Virus record (IMG/VR): IMGVR_UViG_3300022169_000004
Span: 1 to 49,658 of that record
Length of the DNA stretch: 49,658 bases
From: a virus
Reading direction: 5' to 3' (one strand)
A model generated the notes under the pieces. It saw only the letters and a program-made list of their open reading frames with translations, was not told the origin of the DNA and did not search any database. Every line of letters starts with the position of its first letter. Within the stretch, counting starts at the first letter, position 1. Shown one piece after another: positions 218 through 40,267 of this stretch. The position numbers and the translations under genes were made by a program.

Positions 218-239
218 ATACGATTACTTATATATAATA
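218..239 (+). promoter_or_regulatory. Early promoter motif copy 1 (ACGA-N9-TATAATA)
   Basis: ATACGA at 218-223, nine bases, then TATAATA at 233-239. The preceding TTTATAA is also shared with the copy at 2539. There is no TTGACA-like -35 box. The -10-like box lies 17 bases before the ATG at 256. The motif recurs at 1826, 2548 and 3626 with exactly the same 9-base spacing. Its promoter function is inferred. Confidence 0.6.
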
Positions 240-255
240 TCTTAAATAATAAATC

Positions 256-495
256 ATGACAACTAAAAATGCAATTATCTCTTTAATTAAAAAGCGAAAC
301 GAAGGTTACAGTAGCACTAATGTTAAATGGAACTACGAGGTATCAAAGACACCGTGGTCAAATCACGAAGTAATAAACGTAAAAGGCTTTGAAGTATCAA
401 AAGTCTTTTCATGCATGTCTATGTTAATAGAGCCTATGGTTGCTAGCGTAGAAATTGTAAATGACAGAGAAGTTAATCTAAGAATATCTAGATAA
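256..495 (+). CDS. Small hypothetical early protein
   Basis: 79 aa, basic, not recognised. It has no transmembrane segment and no recognisable motif. It lies just downstream of the first ACGA/TATAATA promoter motif. Its TAA stop overlaps the next start (TAATG), so the two are probably translated from one message. Such small, fast-evolving proteins at a phage early end often target host functions; that is inference from position only. Confidence 0.6.
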   Translation: MTTKNAIISLIKKRNEGYSSTNVKWNYEVSKTPWSNHEVINVKGFEVSKVFSCMSMLIEPMVASVEIVNDREVNLRISR

Positions 496-725
496 TGACT
501 GATACAACAAACCCCTGGGATATGCTATGGGCAATACAAGAAAAGCATGAATGCTTTTGGAGAAACAAGTGGAACCATGTAAGTGAGGAATGGGATAGTG
601 TACCATTTACAAAAGACGACATCGACAACATGGAGCTTTATGAAGTAAGTGAGTTGCTTAACGACCACCTGGAAGGCCTAACTGACGAGTTAATGTATTT
701 TTCATTTTCTTTGCGAAGAATGTGA
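495..725 (+). CDS. Small acidic hypothetical early protein
   Basis: 76 aa, acidic and rich in Trp and Glu (WDMLWAIQEKHECFW near the N-terminus), predicted mostly helical. Its start is coupled to the upstream gene through TAATG. I do not recognise a family. The 59-base gap after it holds only a 13-codon ORF at 731-772, which I do not call. Confidence 0.6.
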   Translation: MTDTTNPWDMLWAIQEKHECFWRNKWNHVSEEWDSVPFTKDDIDNMELYEVSELLNDHLEGLTDELMYFSFSLRRM

Positions 726-784
726 TTAAGATGAGCAATCAAAAAATAGTTGGTTTTTTCAAAATTAAATAACTACAAAAATAA

Positions 785-1123
785 ATGGTAACAATAAGCA
801 GAATAAAAGAAGATGAAGCTGGCTTGGCTAACGGTACAAGTTATCACGGCCACGGTGTTTGGTGTAGTCTAAATGAAATAGTATCAGTGTTTGGAAAACA
901 ACATTATACTGGTCCTAAATCTGAGAAAGCTCAAAACGAGTGGTTACTTGAAACTTCTGAAGGAAATATAGTAACGATTTACGATTGGAAACAACACAGA
1001 AACTTCGGCGATGACGAAGTTATATCATGGCACATAGGATCTCACGGTCGTCAAGTGTCTAGGTTAGCAAAAGAATTAATAATTAATGAGTTAAACATAT
1101 ATAAATTACTAAACAATGGTTAA
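785..1123 (+). CDS. Hypothetical early protein
   Basis: 112 aa, unrecognised. The fold looks mixed alpha/beta. One segment (TIYDWKQHRNFGDDEVISWHIG) has the look of small phage proteins that bind a protein partner, but no catalytic motif is visible. It starts after an A-rich leader and ends overlapping the next gene by 8 bases, where the ATG sits inside the last codons (AACAATGGTTAA). Confidence 0.6.
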   Translation: MVTISRIKEDEAGLANGTSYHGHGVWCSLNEIVSVFGKQHYTGPKSEKAQNEWLLETSEGNIVTIYDWKQHRNFGDDEVISWHIGSHGRQVSRLAKELIINELNIYKLLNNG

Positions 1124-1379
1124 AAAACAAGCACAATTCCAAATACTTCAAGTATTAGTAGACAGCTACTGGCTCACAAGTATTGATCCTAAAAATCTTT
1201 CAGAAGATTTAATAGATGAGCAGAACGCTATATTCGAACATCTATTATATAATATGGATTATGACTGCGAGGGTGATGAAGAGATGTCTAGTTATATGTT
1301 AAGGGCAACTCACTCAGAATCAGCAAATTATTACTTAGAAGTGTTTTTACCTAAATTTAAAATACAGTATCTAAAATAA
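1116..1379 (+). CDS. Hypothetical early protein
   Basis: 87 aa, acidic in the middle (DCEGDEEMSSYM), unrecognised. It begins inside the tail of the upstream gene, so it is translationally coupled. The overlap ATGGTTAAAAAA is nearly the same as the one at 9795. It is followed four bases later by the DnaA-like gene. Confidence 0.6.
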   Translation: MVKKQAQFQILQVLVDSYWLTSIDPKNLSEDLIDEQNAIFEHLLYNMDYDCEGDEEMSSYMLRATHSESANYYLEVFLPKFKIQYLK

Positions 1380-1383
1380 ATAT

Positions 1384-1836
1384 ATGGAAGACATACTAAA
1401 AGAGATAACTGATAAGCAAAAAGAAATAAGTTTGCTATACACCAGACTCAGGCGTACTATGCGCTTATATCAACACGACACTCAATTACTTAGTGTTCAA
1501 AAAATCCGTAGAGCTACAGAAGATCTTAAACATGTATGCGAAACGCTAGATGTAACAACAGATCGGGTTTGCTCTAAAGAAAGATCGCTAGACGTATTGA
1601 TTGTAAGACAATCTTTAGCTTATATTTTTAATGAAAAATATGGTATGACACTGTCTTCTATAGGTTTAATGTTCAATAGAGATCACTCTACTATAATAAA
1701 CAATGTTAATAGAGTTAAAGATGCCATATGGTTGTACGAACATAAAGGCATTGATAGCGGACTAATAATAAAAAGTTTAAACAGTATATGCGAAATAGTA
1801 GGCGTAAAAGAAATACAATTTAAAAACGAAGAATAA
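1384..1836 (+). CDS. DnaA domain IV-like DNA-binding protein
   Basis: 150 aa. Residues about 55-113 match the C-terminal DNA-binding domain (domain IV) of the bacterial initiator DnaA: a helix that begins CSKERSLDVLIVRQSLAYIF, then SSIGLMFNRDHSTIINNVNRV, which carries the DnaA signature RDHST at 99-103. In DnaA this helix-turn-helix reads the DnaA box. The AAA+ ATPase domain is missing. Residues 1-50 are helical and charged instead, possibly for dimerisation or partner binding. It may direct phage origin recognition, or occupy host DnaA boxes and block host initiation; both roles are inference. It is followed immediately by promoter motif copy 2. Confidence 0.8.
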   Translation: MEDILKEITDKQKEISLLYTRLRRTMRLYQHDTQLLSVQKIRRATEDLKHVCETLDVTTDRVCSKERSLDVLIVRQSLAYIFNEKYGMTLSSIGLMFNRDHSTIINNVNRVKDAIWLYEHKGIDSGLIIKSLNSICEIVGVKEIQFKNEE

Positions 1837-1846
1837 TATATAATAA
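1826..1846 (+). promoter_or_regulatory. Early promoter motif copy 2, leaderless arrangement
   Basis: ACGA at 1826-1829, nine bases, TATAATA at 1839-1845. It overlaps the end of the DnaA-like gene. The hexamer TATAAT ends at 1844 and the ATG of the next gene starts at 1851, leaving six bases. A normal start site about 7 bases after a -10 box would fall on the A of the start codon and give a leaderless mRNA. Confidence 0.55.
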
Positions 1847-1850
1847 TGAT

Positions 1851-2156
1851 ATGGAAAATAATTTAACAAGATATTTAAAAGACATGGTATCAAAAAAGAA
1901 TAAAGAAATAACCTTCAACTACGACGAGGTCGTTGAGATAATGTCAAACACTCTTAATAACTTAACTGAAACAATTGACATAAGTGATTGCATTGAACTT
2001 GGTGATTATACTTTACGTATGGACTACGATAATTACGTTCATATTGAGGATGCTGAGTTTACTGCCGACGATTTATTAGATGAAATTGGTATTCATTTTA
2101 AAGATAACTTAGATAGTTTAAAAGATTACAAAATTGAACAAAATGAAGTGGCTTAA
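1851..2156 (+). CDS. Hypothetical acidic early protein
   Basis: 101 aa, acidic, especially towards the C-terminus (HIEDAEFTADDLLDEIG). Unrecognised. The start lies six bases after the -10-like box of promoter motif copy 2. It overlaps the next small gene by 14 bases. Confidence 0.6.
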   Translation: MENNLTRYLKDMVSKKNKEITFNYDEVVEIMSNTLNNLTETIDISDCIELGDYTLRMDYDNYVHIEDAEFTADDLLDEIGIHFKDNLDSLKDYKIEQNEVA

Positions 2157-2292
2157 AAAAGAAACAAATCAAGATAAAATAGAGTTTTATTTAAACGTGC
2201 TTTTAGTTTTATCAAAAAATACTAAACTTAGTTCTTATGAAAGAAATAAGTACATTAAGATATTAAACAATATTACTGAAAATATAAGCTAA
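2143..2292 (+). CDS. Small basic hypothetical protein (49 aa)
   Basis: 49 codons plus TAA, with Lys-rich ends (starts MKWLKKETNQDKIEFYL) and a predicted amphipathic helix. It starts 14 bases inside the upstream gene and ends TAATG on the next, filling what would otherwise be a 135-base gap. The overlaps on both sides are the pattern used throughout this operon and are the main support. Function unknown. Confidence 0.55.
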   Translation: MKWLKKETNQDKIEFYLNVLLVLSKNTKLSSYERNKYIKILNNITENIS

Positions 2293-2537
2293 TGAATTAT
2301 ACAACAGAAAAAGGTAGTTTCAAAAAATGGTCATATGTAGTAACTATACCAGATGAGATATTTGGTATTGAATACGGATCATTTGAATACTGGGATAACG
2401 AAACAAATGGTTATGATGATTATGAAGAGGGCCAATTAACATTTGAAGATGGCGAGTTCTTTGACTACGACGGTGTAAGTACACTACCCGATTTTATAAT
2501 AAAAGAAATAGCTAAACATAGAAAAATAAACATCTAA
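2292..2537 (+). CDS. Acidic hypothetical protein, possible DNA mimic
   Basis: 81 aa, very rich in Asp, Glu, Tyr and Gly (DNETNGYDDYEEGQLTFEDG) and predicted mostly beta. Its strong negative charge resembles phage DNA-mimic proteins such as inhibitors of restriction enzymes or polymerase, but this is only a composition argument. It starts at TAATG on the preceding gene. Promoter motif copy 3 lies right after it. Confidence 0.55.
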   Translation: MNYTTEKGSFKKWSYVVTIPDEIFGIEYGSFEYWDNETNGYDDYEEGQLTFEDGEFFDYDGVSTLPDFIIKEIAKHRKINI

Positions 2538-2545
2538 ATTTATAA

Positions 2546-2568
2546 ATACGACGCTTAATATATAATAA
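2546..2568 (+). promoter_or_regulatory. Early promoter motif copy 3, leaderless arrangement
   Basis: ATACGA at 2546-2551, nine bases, TATAATAA at 2561-2568. The 13-base stretch TTTATAAATACGA at 2539-2551 is identical to 211-223. TATAAT ends at 2566 and the next ATG starts at 2573, the same six-base gap as at 1851, so transcription probably starts at or beside the start codon. Confidence 0.6.
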
Positions 2569-2572
2569 CAAC

Positions 2573-2893
2573 ATGAAAAATAATAAATATAATGGTTATG
2601 CTAACTACATGACATTTAGAATAATGCATGATTTTTTAGATCAATTAGTTGTAGATGAGTTTGATGCGGCTGTATCAAGGCTACACCGACACGAAGACTT
2701 TTATGCTAAAAAGTTTGATGCTGAAAAAGTTGCGAGATATGTTAGAGAATCACTGCAATCAATGTGTGATGTTGAAGCTGGTAAATTACATTATACAGTA
2801 TGGGATTACGCAATGACCGCACTTATCCATGTAGACTGGGAAGAACTTGCTATACACGTCAATACAGACTTAGAAGAAAAAATGAATGACTAG
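2573..2893 (+). CDS. DUF7249-like phage protein
   Basis: 106 aa. The N-terminus YNGYANYMTFRIM resembles a small phage and plasmid family that begins YNGWxNYxTWNV, which I know as DUF7249-like; its function is unknown. The body has helical segments and ends acidic. It is led by promoter motif copy 3 and overlaps the next gene by 8 bases. The family match is by eye. Confidence 0.6.
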   Translation: MKNNKYNGYANYMTFRIMHDFLDQLVVDEFDAAVSRLHRHEDFYAKKFDAEKVARYVRESLQSMCDVEAGKLHYTVWDYAMTALIHVDWEELAIHVNTDLEEKMND

Positions 2894-3161
2894 TAAAGAA
2901 TTAAAACACCTAAAATCTTTAAGGCGCATATTTGAAATAGCAGAAAGCAGTAATGATTACTCTTTATCTGATGCCGAAATGGATTACTTTGGTTATCTTA
3001 TACTTAAAGATGAACTGAGAAAAACTAATAAAATAATAAAAGAATACGAAAGCCTAGAAAAATATGAAGCAGCACACGAACTACTTCAATCAGTTAACAC
3101 ATTAAAAGAACATATAAAAGAAATAGAAGAAGACAACAACTTTAATAAAATTAAAATATGA
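2886..3161 (+). CDS. Helical hypothetical protein
   Basis: 91 aa, almost entirely helical with charged heptad-like stretches near residues 38-85 (KIIKEYESLEKYEAAHELL), likely coiled coil. Unrecognised. It is linked to both neighbours by overlaps, ending ATGA with the next gene. Confidence 0.55.
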   Translation: MTSKELKHLKSLRRIFEIAESSNDYSLSDAEMDYFGYLILKDELRKTNKIIKEYESLEKYEAAHELLQSVNTLKEHIKEIEEDNNFNKIKI

Positions 3162-3367
3162 GAACGTTTAACAAGTACAAACAAAATCTAAGACAGCAAG
3201 GCGATAAGATATGGTCTTACTCTACACATGTTGCAACGATAATGTATGACAAAGAATACCATCCATCCCATTTAGAACAGCTCGGGTATTGGAGTCAAAC
3301 AACTCAAAAGCATATTAACTATGCTGCATCTGAGCTAGGATTAGCAGTAGTTAAATCAGCAGCATAA
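3158..3367 (+). CDS. Hypothetical basic early protein
   Basis: 69 aa, basic, unrecognised. The N-terminus is rich in Lys, Arg and Gln (FNKYKQNLRQQGDKIW). The segment HPSHLEQLGYWSQTTQKHINYAASELG looks like a small helix-turn-helix or winged-helix arrangement, but I cannot name the family. The start overlaps the previous stop (ATGA). Confidence 0.55.
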   Translation: MRTFNKYKQNLRQQGDKIWSYSTHVATIMYDKEYHPSHLEQLGYWSQTTQKHINYAASELGLAVVKSAA

Positions 3368-3378
3368 TTTATTTAAAA

Positions 3379-3564
3379 ATGGACTATAAAAAAATAAACA
3401 ACATTGAAGTAGATGGAATAGACACTAAAGACTATCCTGATTTTTGTGACGCATTTATATCAAGTGCTGATTATTATGGTAAAGAAATGACTGAAGAACA
3501 ATTAGATGAATTAAATGAAGATAGTGACTTTGTCTATGAATGTGTGCAAAATCATTTGTTTTAA
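3379..3564 (+). CDS. Conserved small acidic phage protein
   Basis: 61 aa. The pattern D-x-K-D-Y-P-D-F-C-D-A-F-I followed by EEQLDELNED is one I associate with a widespread small phage family of unknown function. Acidic, helical, no membrane segment. A 115-base stretch follows that holds a duplicated fragment and promoter motif copy 4. Confidence 0.6.
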   Translation: MDYKKINNIEVDGIDTKDYPDFCDAFISSADYYGKEMTEEQLDELNEDSDFVYECVQNHLF

Positions 3565-3565
3565 T

Positions 3566-3634
3566 TATAAAGCTATGAAAGCAATATTGATAACAATAGC
3601 ATGGTGCTACAAATACAGAAATAATACGATCTAA
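3566..3634 (+). pseudogene. Remnant duplicate of the 5' end of the 3D-domain gene
   Basis: Bases 3566-3590 match 4113-4137 at 24 of 25 positions. They cover the leader and first codons (ATGAAAGCAATATTGA) of the 3D-domain gene downstream. Here the frame runs only 19 codons (3575-3634) before TAA, and similarity fades after about 40 bases. It is best read as a decayed partial duplication. A short leader peptide is a less likely alternative. Confidence 0.45.
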
Positions 3635-3646
3635 AAAGTATAATAT
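3624..3646 (+). promoter_or_regulatory. Early promoter motif copy 4 (ACGA-N9-TATAATA)
   Basis: ATACGA at 3624-3629, nine bases, TATAATAT at 3639-3646. It overlaps the end of the remnant fragment and stands 34 bases before the ATG at 3680. Geometry is identical to the copies at 220, 1826 and 2548. Confidence 0.55.
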
Positions 3647-3679
3647 ACTAAACAATAAACAAATGAAACTAATCAAATC

Positions 3680-4117
3680 ATGAGAACAATAGAAACAAAA
3701 GTTTACACAATAGATGAACACCCTGATCAAGATAAATGCTTTGAGTGGATGAAAGATAATATGTACGACTTGAATGAACATTCAGTATATGAAGTAGTAG
3801 ATAGCTTGAAAGCATTACAAAAAGTAATTGGTGGAGATTTAGATTATTCAATCGGTCAATCACCAGATAGAGGAGAATTTATAACATTCAAAAACTACGG
3901 TGAGGATTCGCTTAAAGAGCTTAATACTGATGAATGTCCACTAACTGGAGTATGTTGGGATGCTGACTTAATTAAAAGTATGCAAGCAAATGGAGATGCT
4001 TATGGTGTATTGCGAGCATTGCATGAAGACACTGAGTACGTTTATTCAGATGAAGGATTAAAAGAACTTTGCGAAGCAAACGAGTACGAATTTACTGAAG
4101 AAGGTGAAAAAATATAA
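3680..4117 (+). CDS. Conserved phage protein, unknown function
   Basis: 145 aa, acidic. The start RTIETKVYTIDEHPDQDKCFEW resembles a common phage and prophage family that begins RTIExxVYxFDEL and contains a Trp-rich helical core; no biochemical role is known to me. It has no visible catalytic motif and no membrane segment. It is led by promoter motif copy 4 and its stop sits four bases before the next ATG. Confidence 0.6.
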   Translation: MRTIETKVYTIDEHPDQDKCFEWMKDNMYDLNEHSVYEVVDSLKALQKVIGGDLDYSIGQSPDRGEFITFKNYGEDSLKELNTDECPLTGVCWDADLIKSMQANGDAYGVLRALHEDTEYVYSDEGLKELCEANEYEFTEEGEKI

Positions 4118-4943: not shown

Positions 4944-4990
4944 TGGGACATTAGGCCTTTAAGATCCCTTAGTAAGGGGCTATTGTCCCA
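4944..4990 (+). promoter_or_regulatory. Nested hairpin element upstream of the HTH gene
   Basis: Outer stem TGGGACA (4944-4950) pairs with TGTCCCA (4984-4990). Inside it CCCTT (4966-4970), loop AGT, AAGGG (4974-4978) forms a second hairpin. There is no U-tract, so it is not a standard terminator. It ends 11 bases before the ATG of the HTH gene and could control its translation or stability, or be a small structured RNA. It does not match a riboswitch I know. Confidence 0.5.
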
Positions 4991-5001
4991 CATTGTATTT
5001 G

Positions 5002-5619
5002 ATGTCAGATAGAAAAAATTTAGATTGGTTAAACCGTAAGCGTATATGCTACGTACAATACCCTATAACAGATAAACCAACAGAGGTTTACAATTGGGGT
5101 TGGTACTATGAATGCGGTACTTACCAATGTTACGAGTTATTTAGATCTAAAGCTAAAATAAACTCTTTAAGATCTTTTAAGTGGCATTTATATGTTCTTT
5201 TATATATTAATGATGGTATACTCTTTGATCAGTTTAAAGATTTAGTTTACTTTTTAGCTACAAAAGATAATAATTTTGTTAATATAGATTTATCTGTATC
5301 TTTACTCGATAATTTGATTAGTGAAATGCATGGCAATGAGATTAAGTTTGCACCTAAAAATAAACTTAGAAAAGTTATATTTAAAATAGGTACAGGTCTT
5401 GAAATTCATGAAAAGCTATCTATAGTTGGAAAGCTAATAGGTAGATCAAAGAAAATATCTGAACAAGATATTTATGAATGTATGTTAGATATTAATGCAG
5501 CGGGTAAAAAAATAACCATTACACTATTATCTAAGTTACTATGTTGTTCTACAAAGACCATTCATAGAAACATAACTGATCAGTTGATTGAAGAGAAAAA
5601 AATACTAAATGAAAGTTAA
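5002..5619 (+). CDS. Putative regulator with C-terminal helix-turn-helix
   Basis: 205 aa from the ATG at 5002; an upstream in-frame TTG at 4993 is possible. I do not recognise the N-terminal 150 residues, which are rich in Trp, Tyr and Lys. The C-terminus, about 165-200, reads KKITITLLSKLLCCSTKTIHR, a typical helix-turn-helix in which the second helix begins at CSTKTIHR. The gene is preceded by a folded RNA element and its stop overlaps the sigma factor start (TAATG), so it is probably a transcription or replication regulator made with it. Role inferred. Confidence 0.6.
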   Translation: MSDRKNLDWLNRKRICYVQYPITDKPTEVYNWGWYYECGTYQCYELFRSKAKINSLRSFKWHLYVLLYINDGILFDQFKDLVYFLATKDNNFVNIDLSVSLLDNLISEMHGNEIKFAPKNKLRKVIFKIGTGLEIHEKLSIVGKLIGRSKKISEQDIYECMLDINAAGKKITITLLSKLLCCSTKTIHRNITDQLIEEKKILNES

Positions 5620-6368
5620 TGAAAAACTATCACGTGAAGAATTATATACGATATAAGGACGATTTAAAAGAGTCTATGCCTGACGGTAAGTTTTGGGACG
5701 AATATAATAGAGATGAATTAATTATAAAGTTTTTACCGTTGGTTGAAAACATTGCAAGAGGTTTTTCAACAGATGATAAAGCATCAGGTATATCTAATAT
5801 ATGTGACATGATACAAGAGGGTAGTATAGGTTTAATAAGAGCTGTTGACAAAATAGATATTGAGTTTTCCTTATCTAAAATTGATCCTGAAAAATCTATT
5901 AAGTCTTTTTTATCTAAAAGAATAAAAGGTGCAATAAGAAGAGCAGTTGATACAAACAGGGGATCGATGAGAATACCTGAGCATAGACTAACTGATATAA
6001 GAAGCGATGATCAAAATACAGAAAAAGTGGCGATGTTTTTTAACTCTATATTTAAAAGTATAGACGAATATGACTACAACGGAAACAACCCTTACTATAA
6101 CATACCTGATTTAAATAAAGAATATAGAGTAGAAATGTTGAACTCTTTACTAATCAACATTATAAATAAAAACTTAAAACAAAAAGAAGCTTTTATATTA
6201 AAAGCAAGCTACGGATTAGAAGGTAGAAAAATGTCAGCAAATGACATAGCTAAAGAGATTAACATAAATGGTAGCAGCGCACATATAAGAGTATCACAAC
6301 TAAAAAGACAAGCAATAGATAAGTTAATTCACTTTGTAAATATTTCGCAAGTGATTGATTTTCTTTGA
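5619..6368 (+). CDS. Sigma-70 family RNA polymerase sigma factor
   Basis: 249 aa. Region 2 is at about 34-110: LPLVENIARGF, then DMIQEGSIGLIRAVDKID (core-binding 2.2), then FLSKRIKGAIRRAVD (2.3-2.4). Region 4 is at about 186-240: LKQKEAFILKASYGLEGRKM and the helix-turn-helix SANDIAKEININGSSAHIRVSQLKRQA. Region 3 is short or replaced by an Asn/Tyr/Asp-rich linker at 145-170. It should redirect host RNA polymerase to phage promoters. Candidate targets are the ACGA/TATAATA sites or the TAnnTTTG sites in this window. It follows the HTH gene with a TAATG overlap. Confidence 0.85.
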   Translation: MKNYHVKNYIRYKDDLKESMPDGKFWDEYNRDELIIKFLPLVENIARGFSTDDKASGISNICDMIQEGSIGLIRAVDKIDIEFSLSKIDPEKSIKSFLSKRIKGAIRRAVDTNRGSMRIPEHRLTDIRSDDQNTEKVAMFFNSIFKSIDEYDYNGNNPYYNIPDLNKEYRVEMLNSLLINIINKNLKQKEAFILKASYGLEGRKMSANDIAKEININGSSAHIRVSQLKRQAIDKLIHFVNISQVIDFL

Positions 6369-6386
6369 TTTAAATTATTATATTTG
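6355..6386 (+). promoter_or_regulatory. Bacteroidetes-type promoter before the ERF gene
   Basis: -33 element TTG at 6355-6357, 21 bases, then -7 element TATATTTG at 6379-6386, which fits the Bacteroidetes consensus TAnnTTTG. It overlaps the last codons of the sigma factor gene and lies 31 bases before the ATG at 6418. The minus-strand site at 46228-46260 has the same spacing. It would start the replication and recombination operon. Confidence 0.65.
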
Positions 6387-40245: not shown

Positions 40246-40267
40246 AATATAATATAAAAAATTTGGT

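Follow-up and report, generated by a model that had tools for sequence, protein, structure and literature searches.

Repeated ACGA-N9-TATAATA elements as probable promoters of a phage-encoded sigma factor in Bacteroidota phages

Here we report that four repeats of the form ACGA-N9-TATAATA, located near one end of a viral contig, are most likely the cognate promoters of a sigma factor encoded by the phage itself (5619-6368, + strand), which would act on the core RNA polymerase of the host. The contig, IMGVR_UViG_3300022169_000004, was analysed in its entirety (49,658 bases, hereafter the window) and represents a Bacteroidota-type podovirus, with small genes and replication genes on the + strand up to about 15.2 kb and a structural region on the - strand. 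Matches to phage families that also occur in phages of Flavobacterium, Cellulophaga and Tenacibaculum were obtained for the terminase, the portal and the structural proteins. A sequence-only reading had left two options for the repeats, a promoter of the phage sigma factor or a host promoter with an unusual upstream contact. The first is now well supported by the phage-only occurrence of the motif, its complete linkage to the sigma gene, a sigma-type geometry and a sharp signal at the predicted transcription start, and these phages probably redirect host RNA polymerase with a promoter code of their own.

Searching both strands of the window returned exactly the four copies listed by that reading, at 220, 1826, 2548 and 3626 and all on the + strand, where 0.05 would be expected by chance and at most one occurred in any of 100 shuffles. 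TATAATA by itself is found 30 times against 24 expected, which is chance level, so that the signal lies in the paired ACGA/TATAATA geometry. Zero further exact matches exist in the whole window, in agreement with the earlier claim that the late region holds no copy with the same spacing; with one mismatch allowed, the + strand gains a single candidate (11111, within a gene) and the - strand two, which lie within late genes. Three of the sites read ATACGA, as noted before, and the fourth (1824) reads AAACGA. Their supposed restriction to the early gene cluster is correct insofar as all four fall within the first 3.7 kb, 'early' resting on position only. The proposed lack of a -35 box is correct as regards TTGACA. 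At -37/-32, however, TACAAT is present in site 1826 and TACAGA in site 3626; they represent the upstream element that the family conserves and that is degenerate at sites 220 and 2548.

Each site is indeed followed by a start codon within 35 bases (ATG at 256, 1851, 2573 and 3680, or 17, 6, 6 and 35 bases past the last A of TATAATA). All four predicted promoters lie on the + strand. Promoter 1 (204-245) comprises AAATACGA at 216-223, the -10 TATAATA at 233-239 and a predicted +1 at 245, with a degenerate -35-type element, and is predicted to drive the genes from 256 onwards. These include the gene at 1384-1836 in the first array operon, for a small protein that ends in a DnaA-type DNA-binding domain at its C-terminus (Bac_DnaA_C, 5e-14); DnaA-like genes are also present in phi10:1 and MW202828. 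In promoter 2 (1814-1851), TACAAT (1814-1819), ACGA (1826-1829) and the -10 TATAATA (1839-1845) place the predicted +1 at 1851, the A of the ATG of the gene at 1851-2156, and in promoter 3 (2536-2573), with AAATACGA at 2544-2551, TATAATA at 2561-2567 and a degenerate -35-type element, the predicted +1 at 2573 is likewise the A of the ATG of the gene at 2573-2893; both transcripts would be leaderless. Promoter 4 (3614-3651) consists of TACAGA (3614-3619), ACGA (3626-3629) and the -10 TATAATA (3639-3645) with a predicted +1 at 3651, and the next sizeable gene starts at 3680. Read-through from it could extend to the sigma gene.

Related phages were first collected through the primase-helicase (80 contigs); the sigma gene by itself retrieved few relatives, and the enlarged set required an alignment of the sigma family. 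The motif search over related phages, which had been named as a check, then gave 607 sites, arranged as arrays, in 132 non-redundant sigma loci. A weight matrix at a threshold of at least 16 bits recovered 231 sites on the gene strand of 81 relatives (1.33 Mb) versus none on the opposite strand, which served as the control for a matrix trained on the same loci that it scored. The family consensus is T[A/G]CA[A/G]A-N2-AAATACGA-N9-[G/T]ATAATA. Across whole records the array sites group on one strand, and 14 of the 607 lie within long genes. The base 25 past the ACGA 'A' is an A in 320 sites, a G in 279, a T in 7 and a C in 1, making a purine in 599/607 (98.7%). Exactly at this base an ATG opens 70 genes of at least 40 codons in the enlarged set, and a second, broad group of gene starts lies at 34-49, i.e. 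9-24 bases beyond it. With the purine as +1, the upstream block falls at -37/-32, AAATACGA at -29/-22 with ACGA at -25/-22, and [G/T]ATAATA at -12/-6 ([G/T]ATAAT at -12/-7). From this arrangement we infer that the array element is a promoter giving leaderless or short-leader transcripts. If the -10 were instead the TATAAT at columns 18-23, the +1 would lie downstream of the leaderless ATGs, and this alternative was rejected on that ground.

Repeated intergenic sites can also be operators, and an array of operator or replication sites rather than promoters would be a further reading. It is extremely improbable here, since the orientation of the sites strictly follows the genes and the near-invariant purine sits at the +1 distance, exactly where the leaderless start codons peak. 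Variants of the motif are uniform among the copies of one genome and differ from genome to genome, as a coevolving reader predicts. The first -10 position, for example, is T in the window and in its nearest array-bearing relative of the first set (L022) versus G in most others; T also occurs there in L182 and in L248, which has six TTGCAGAT...ACG[A/T]-N9-TATA[A/T]TA copies. We found no report of this motif in the literature searched.

Host RNA polymerase, with either a housekeeping or an alternative host sigma factor, might instead read the sites as strong immediate-early promoters. T4 early promoters are many, strong and placed before small genes, the array has the same appearance, and its -10 resembles TATAAT. 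Housekeeping promoters of Flavobacterium and other Bacteroidota, in turn, need the -7 element TAHHTTTG (PMC6847099), which none of the four window sites contains. No such promoter class is seen in Bacteroidota genomes either: every motif match in a 5.2 Mb Saprospiraceae bin was on one phage contig (C160), and 246 other Bacteroidota genomes gave ten scattered single matches, not above a reversed-pattern control. Moreover, relatives without the sigma factor have no motif, and the ERF promoter in the clade of the window uses TATATTTG, so host-type promoters are usable elsewhere in these phages. Reading by the host holoenzyme is therefore quite unlikely, and these results speak against the earlier option of a host promoter with an unusual upstream contact. 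By its distribution, the array motif is real and widespread, a phage-specific class and not a host promoter class. One relative of the window phage, L248 (CALKXE010000160.1; sigma factor 64% identical), belongs to this 5.2 Mb Saprospiraceae bin, a hint that hosts may be found in that group, with bin contamination being possible.

The proposed reader at 5619-6368 is a sigma-70-family factor with regions 2, 3.0 and 4. It matches Pfam Sigma70_r2 (8e-7) and phrog_351 (1e-15), TIGR02937 covers its residues 31-236, its fold matches in the PDB are sigma-A and FliA, and it could be aligned to FliA of A. aeolicus over its full length. Among 36 family members Sigma70_r2 was detected in 28 and Sigma70_r4 in 24 (best 2e-8), the window protein itself giving no Sigma70_r4 match. 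In our reading of the alignment the family has G and R where sigma-70 has Q437 and T440, and region 3 is poorly conserved. None of the phages in INPHARED has this sigma factor. As in other sigma factors, region 2 would contact the -10, and the -37/-32 block would be bound by region 4.

Linkage between motif and sigma gene was assessed in contigs picked by the motif alone, ignoring sigma. At least 118 stretches matched the pattern, versus none when its spacing was shifted by one base. The sigma factor was encoded in 23 of the 32 motif-picked contigs of at least 45 kb and in all 18 of those of at least 57 kb; in the other 9 of the 32 the contig breaks off within the array, at the end facing sigma. 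Conversely, MW202828 (TerL 64%) and Flavobacterium phage elemo (TerL 46%) have neither sigma factor nor motif, and no site above 2 bits, the scoring of elemo covering the first 50 of its 61.7 kb. Relative to the sigma gene, 577 of the 607 sites lie upstream; the other 30 are downstream on the same strand, where some directly precede replication genes. Motif distance was compared with the distances of sigma, the upstream gene, ERF and the helicase in Mantel and partial Mantel tests; these did not set sigma apart from the controls, motif distance correlating equally well with helicase distance, and mutual information between motif and protein columns did not single out sigma over helicase, ERF or the upstream gene. 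Such covariation tests fail here because the phage proteins share one history and the motif is highly conserved. In about three clades, inspection by eye pointed to a possible link of an altered ACGA with a G-P-S triplet in region 4 of sigma. One sigma subclade (L014, L024, L025 and L035) has no array in the 2-8 kb upstream, and the recognition helix of L014, L024 and L025 is altered to VKxSK; either the motif has changed in this subclade or its sigma factor serves another role. A tRNA-like sequence was observed upstream of the sigma operon in L014 (4740-4945), L024 (2350-2550) and L035, where there is no array.

The terminase and portal place the window phage near crAss-like/phi38:1-type podoviruses, and the window encodes a protein of virion size (2501 residues), so a virion-packaged single-subunit RNA polymerase of the N4 or crAss-like type might be considered as the reader. 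Contacts reaching to -37 together with a -12/-7 block nevertheless suit a sigma holoenzyme better than single-subunit promoters. The 2501-residue protein has no Pfam polymerase match, and the giant proteins of the window and of a relative (G019) were free of D-x-D-G-D-type motifs in a motif test that was crude and applied to an incomplete window contig; G005 gave one D-rich match, which its homologue lacks. We consider a virion polymerase very unlikely.

Directly upstream of the sigma gene, and co-conserved with it, is a gene for a protein of 205 residues from the ATG at 5002 (5002-5619, + strand). A C-terminal helix-turn-helix (HTH) was found in 31 of 34 members; no solved fold matches the protein, and outside the HTH its fold is unmatched. 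It is possibly an accessory factor and a candidate reader of the middle ACGA block. The one clade that lacks the gene (L057, L064, L079 and L080) has its ACGA block relaxed or lost, which fits an accessory role. The relaxed block of that clade, the co-conservation, the adjacency to sigma and the HTH in most members would also be compatible with a stronger proposal, in which the HTH protein does most of the reading, or is required as an activator at the ACGA block, with sigma as its partner. That proposal is rather unlikely, as the clade without the gene keeps the -10 and an upstream block, so the protein is not obligatory everywhere, and as L038, L040 and L085 possess the gene yet have an altered ACGA.

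The operon of these two genes is preceded by a hairpin (4944-4990, + strand) of the form GTGACAATAGCC-N~18-AGTAAnAGGCTAATGTCAC, an element present in about 100 of 132 relatives (e.g. L213 9244-9310 and L185 9341-9407). Its 3' arm contains the start codon of the upstream gene in most relatives; in the window there is a paired change, GGGAC/GTCCC, and the ATG is shifted. RNAalifold gave four pairs and no covariation support. The element may control translation, and with a local stem it could form a pseudoknot.

If the sites are promoters of the phage sigma factor, its initial supply needs explaining, since small genes like those of the array region are often the first to be expressed, whereas known phage sigma factors serve middle or late genes. 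We propose that the host enzyme would transcribe the sigma operon first, and that read-through from array promoters may later feed it in a positive loop. TAHHTTTG elements occur nearby in the window clade: host-type TAATTTTG precedes the sigma operon at -305 in the window and at -106 in L248, which suggests that the host enzyme starts this operon. Outside the array, the host-type element TATATTTG (6379-6386, + strand) precedes the ERF recombinase gene (6418), and it occurs at the ERF operon throughout the window clade (window, L005, L022 and L248). The gap between sigma and ERF in other relatives (e.g. L210 and L209) contains a promoter-like TGTAAAA-N~12-TGTGTAATTATATTAATA, once per genome; the window clade has TATATTTG in its stead, and L010, L012 and L013 have the array motif. 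Elsewhere, TTTAATTATATTATATCATG was observed at 40246-40254 (- strand) of the window and in L092, L105, L111, L163 and others; in relatives it follows a terminator-like hairpin and immediately precedes a structural gene that lies downstream of the portal gene, and sigma-less relatives have a TAnnTTTG element in its place.

Taken jointly, a distinct sigma family, an HTH partner, an RNA element, a three-block promoter and a self-amplifying loop might form a take-over module of Bacteroidota phages, which we put forward tentatively. Sigma and its partner would be expressed under the conserved RNA element at the start codon of their operon, the contact blocks would lie about one helical turn apart (-35, -24, -12), the middle ACGA would be read either by the partner or through an unusual contact of sigma, and the array and sigma operon would together amplify their own expression.

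T4 late promoters consist only of TATAAATA and require gp33/gp45. The phage sigma proposed as reader here would resemble the T4 late sigma gp55 in reading an A/T-rich -10-type element, whereas upstream and middle elements are conserved as well. SPO1 gp28 (with gp33/gp34) provides the precedent of phage sigma factors with their own middle and late promoters (PMC9429907). As in SPO1, a phage-made sigma would redirect the host core polymerase to a repeated, phage-only promoter class, in our case as judged from sequence; the host phylum differs, the promoter sequence is unrelated, an extra ACGA block lies between the -35 and -10 regions, and the array occupies a small-gene region upstream of the sigma gene. 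Sigma-28/FliA promoters (TAAA-N15-GCCGATAA) likewise contain GATAA in the -10 and have a similar spacing of the upstream block, but the array has no GCC before GATAA, possesses the middle ACGA block and is assigned to a phage-encoded factor with a poorly conserved region 3. With the Bacteroidota housekeeping promoter (-33 TTTG / -7 TAHHTTTG, sigma-ABfr) the array shares its predicted hosts and an A at -11, yet its sites have no TTTG at -8/-5 and their sequence class is absent from host genomes. SPO1 and T4 already exemplify the principle, while the sigma family, the promoter and the host group appear to be undescribed in the literature searched. The pairing proposed here provides a testable sigma-promoter pair for a widespread group of uncultured marine Bacteroidota phages, with transcription starts predicted at single-base precision for about a hundred genomes. 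In a phylum with promoters unlike those of E. coli it offers a system for orthogonal expression, and the motif can serve as a marker to find these phages and their host-takeover genes.
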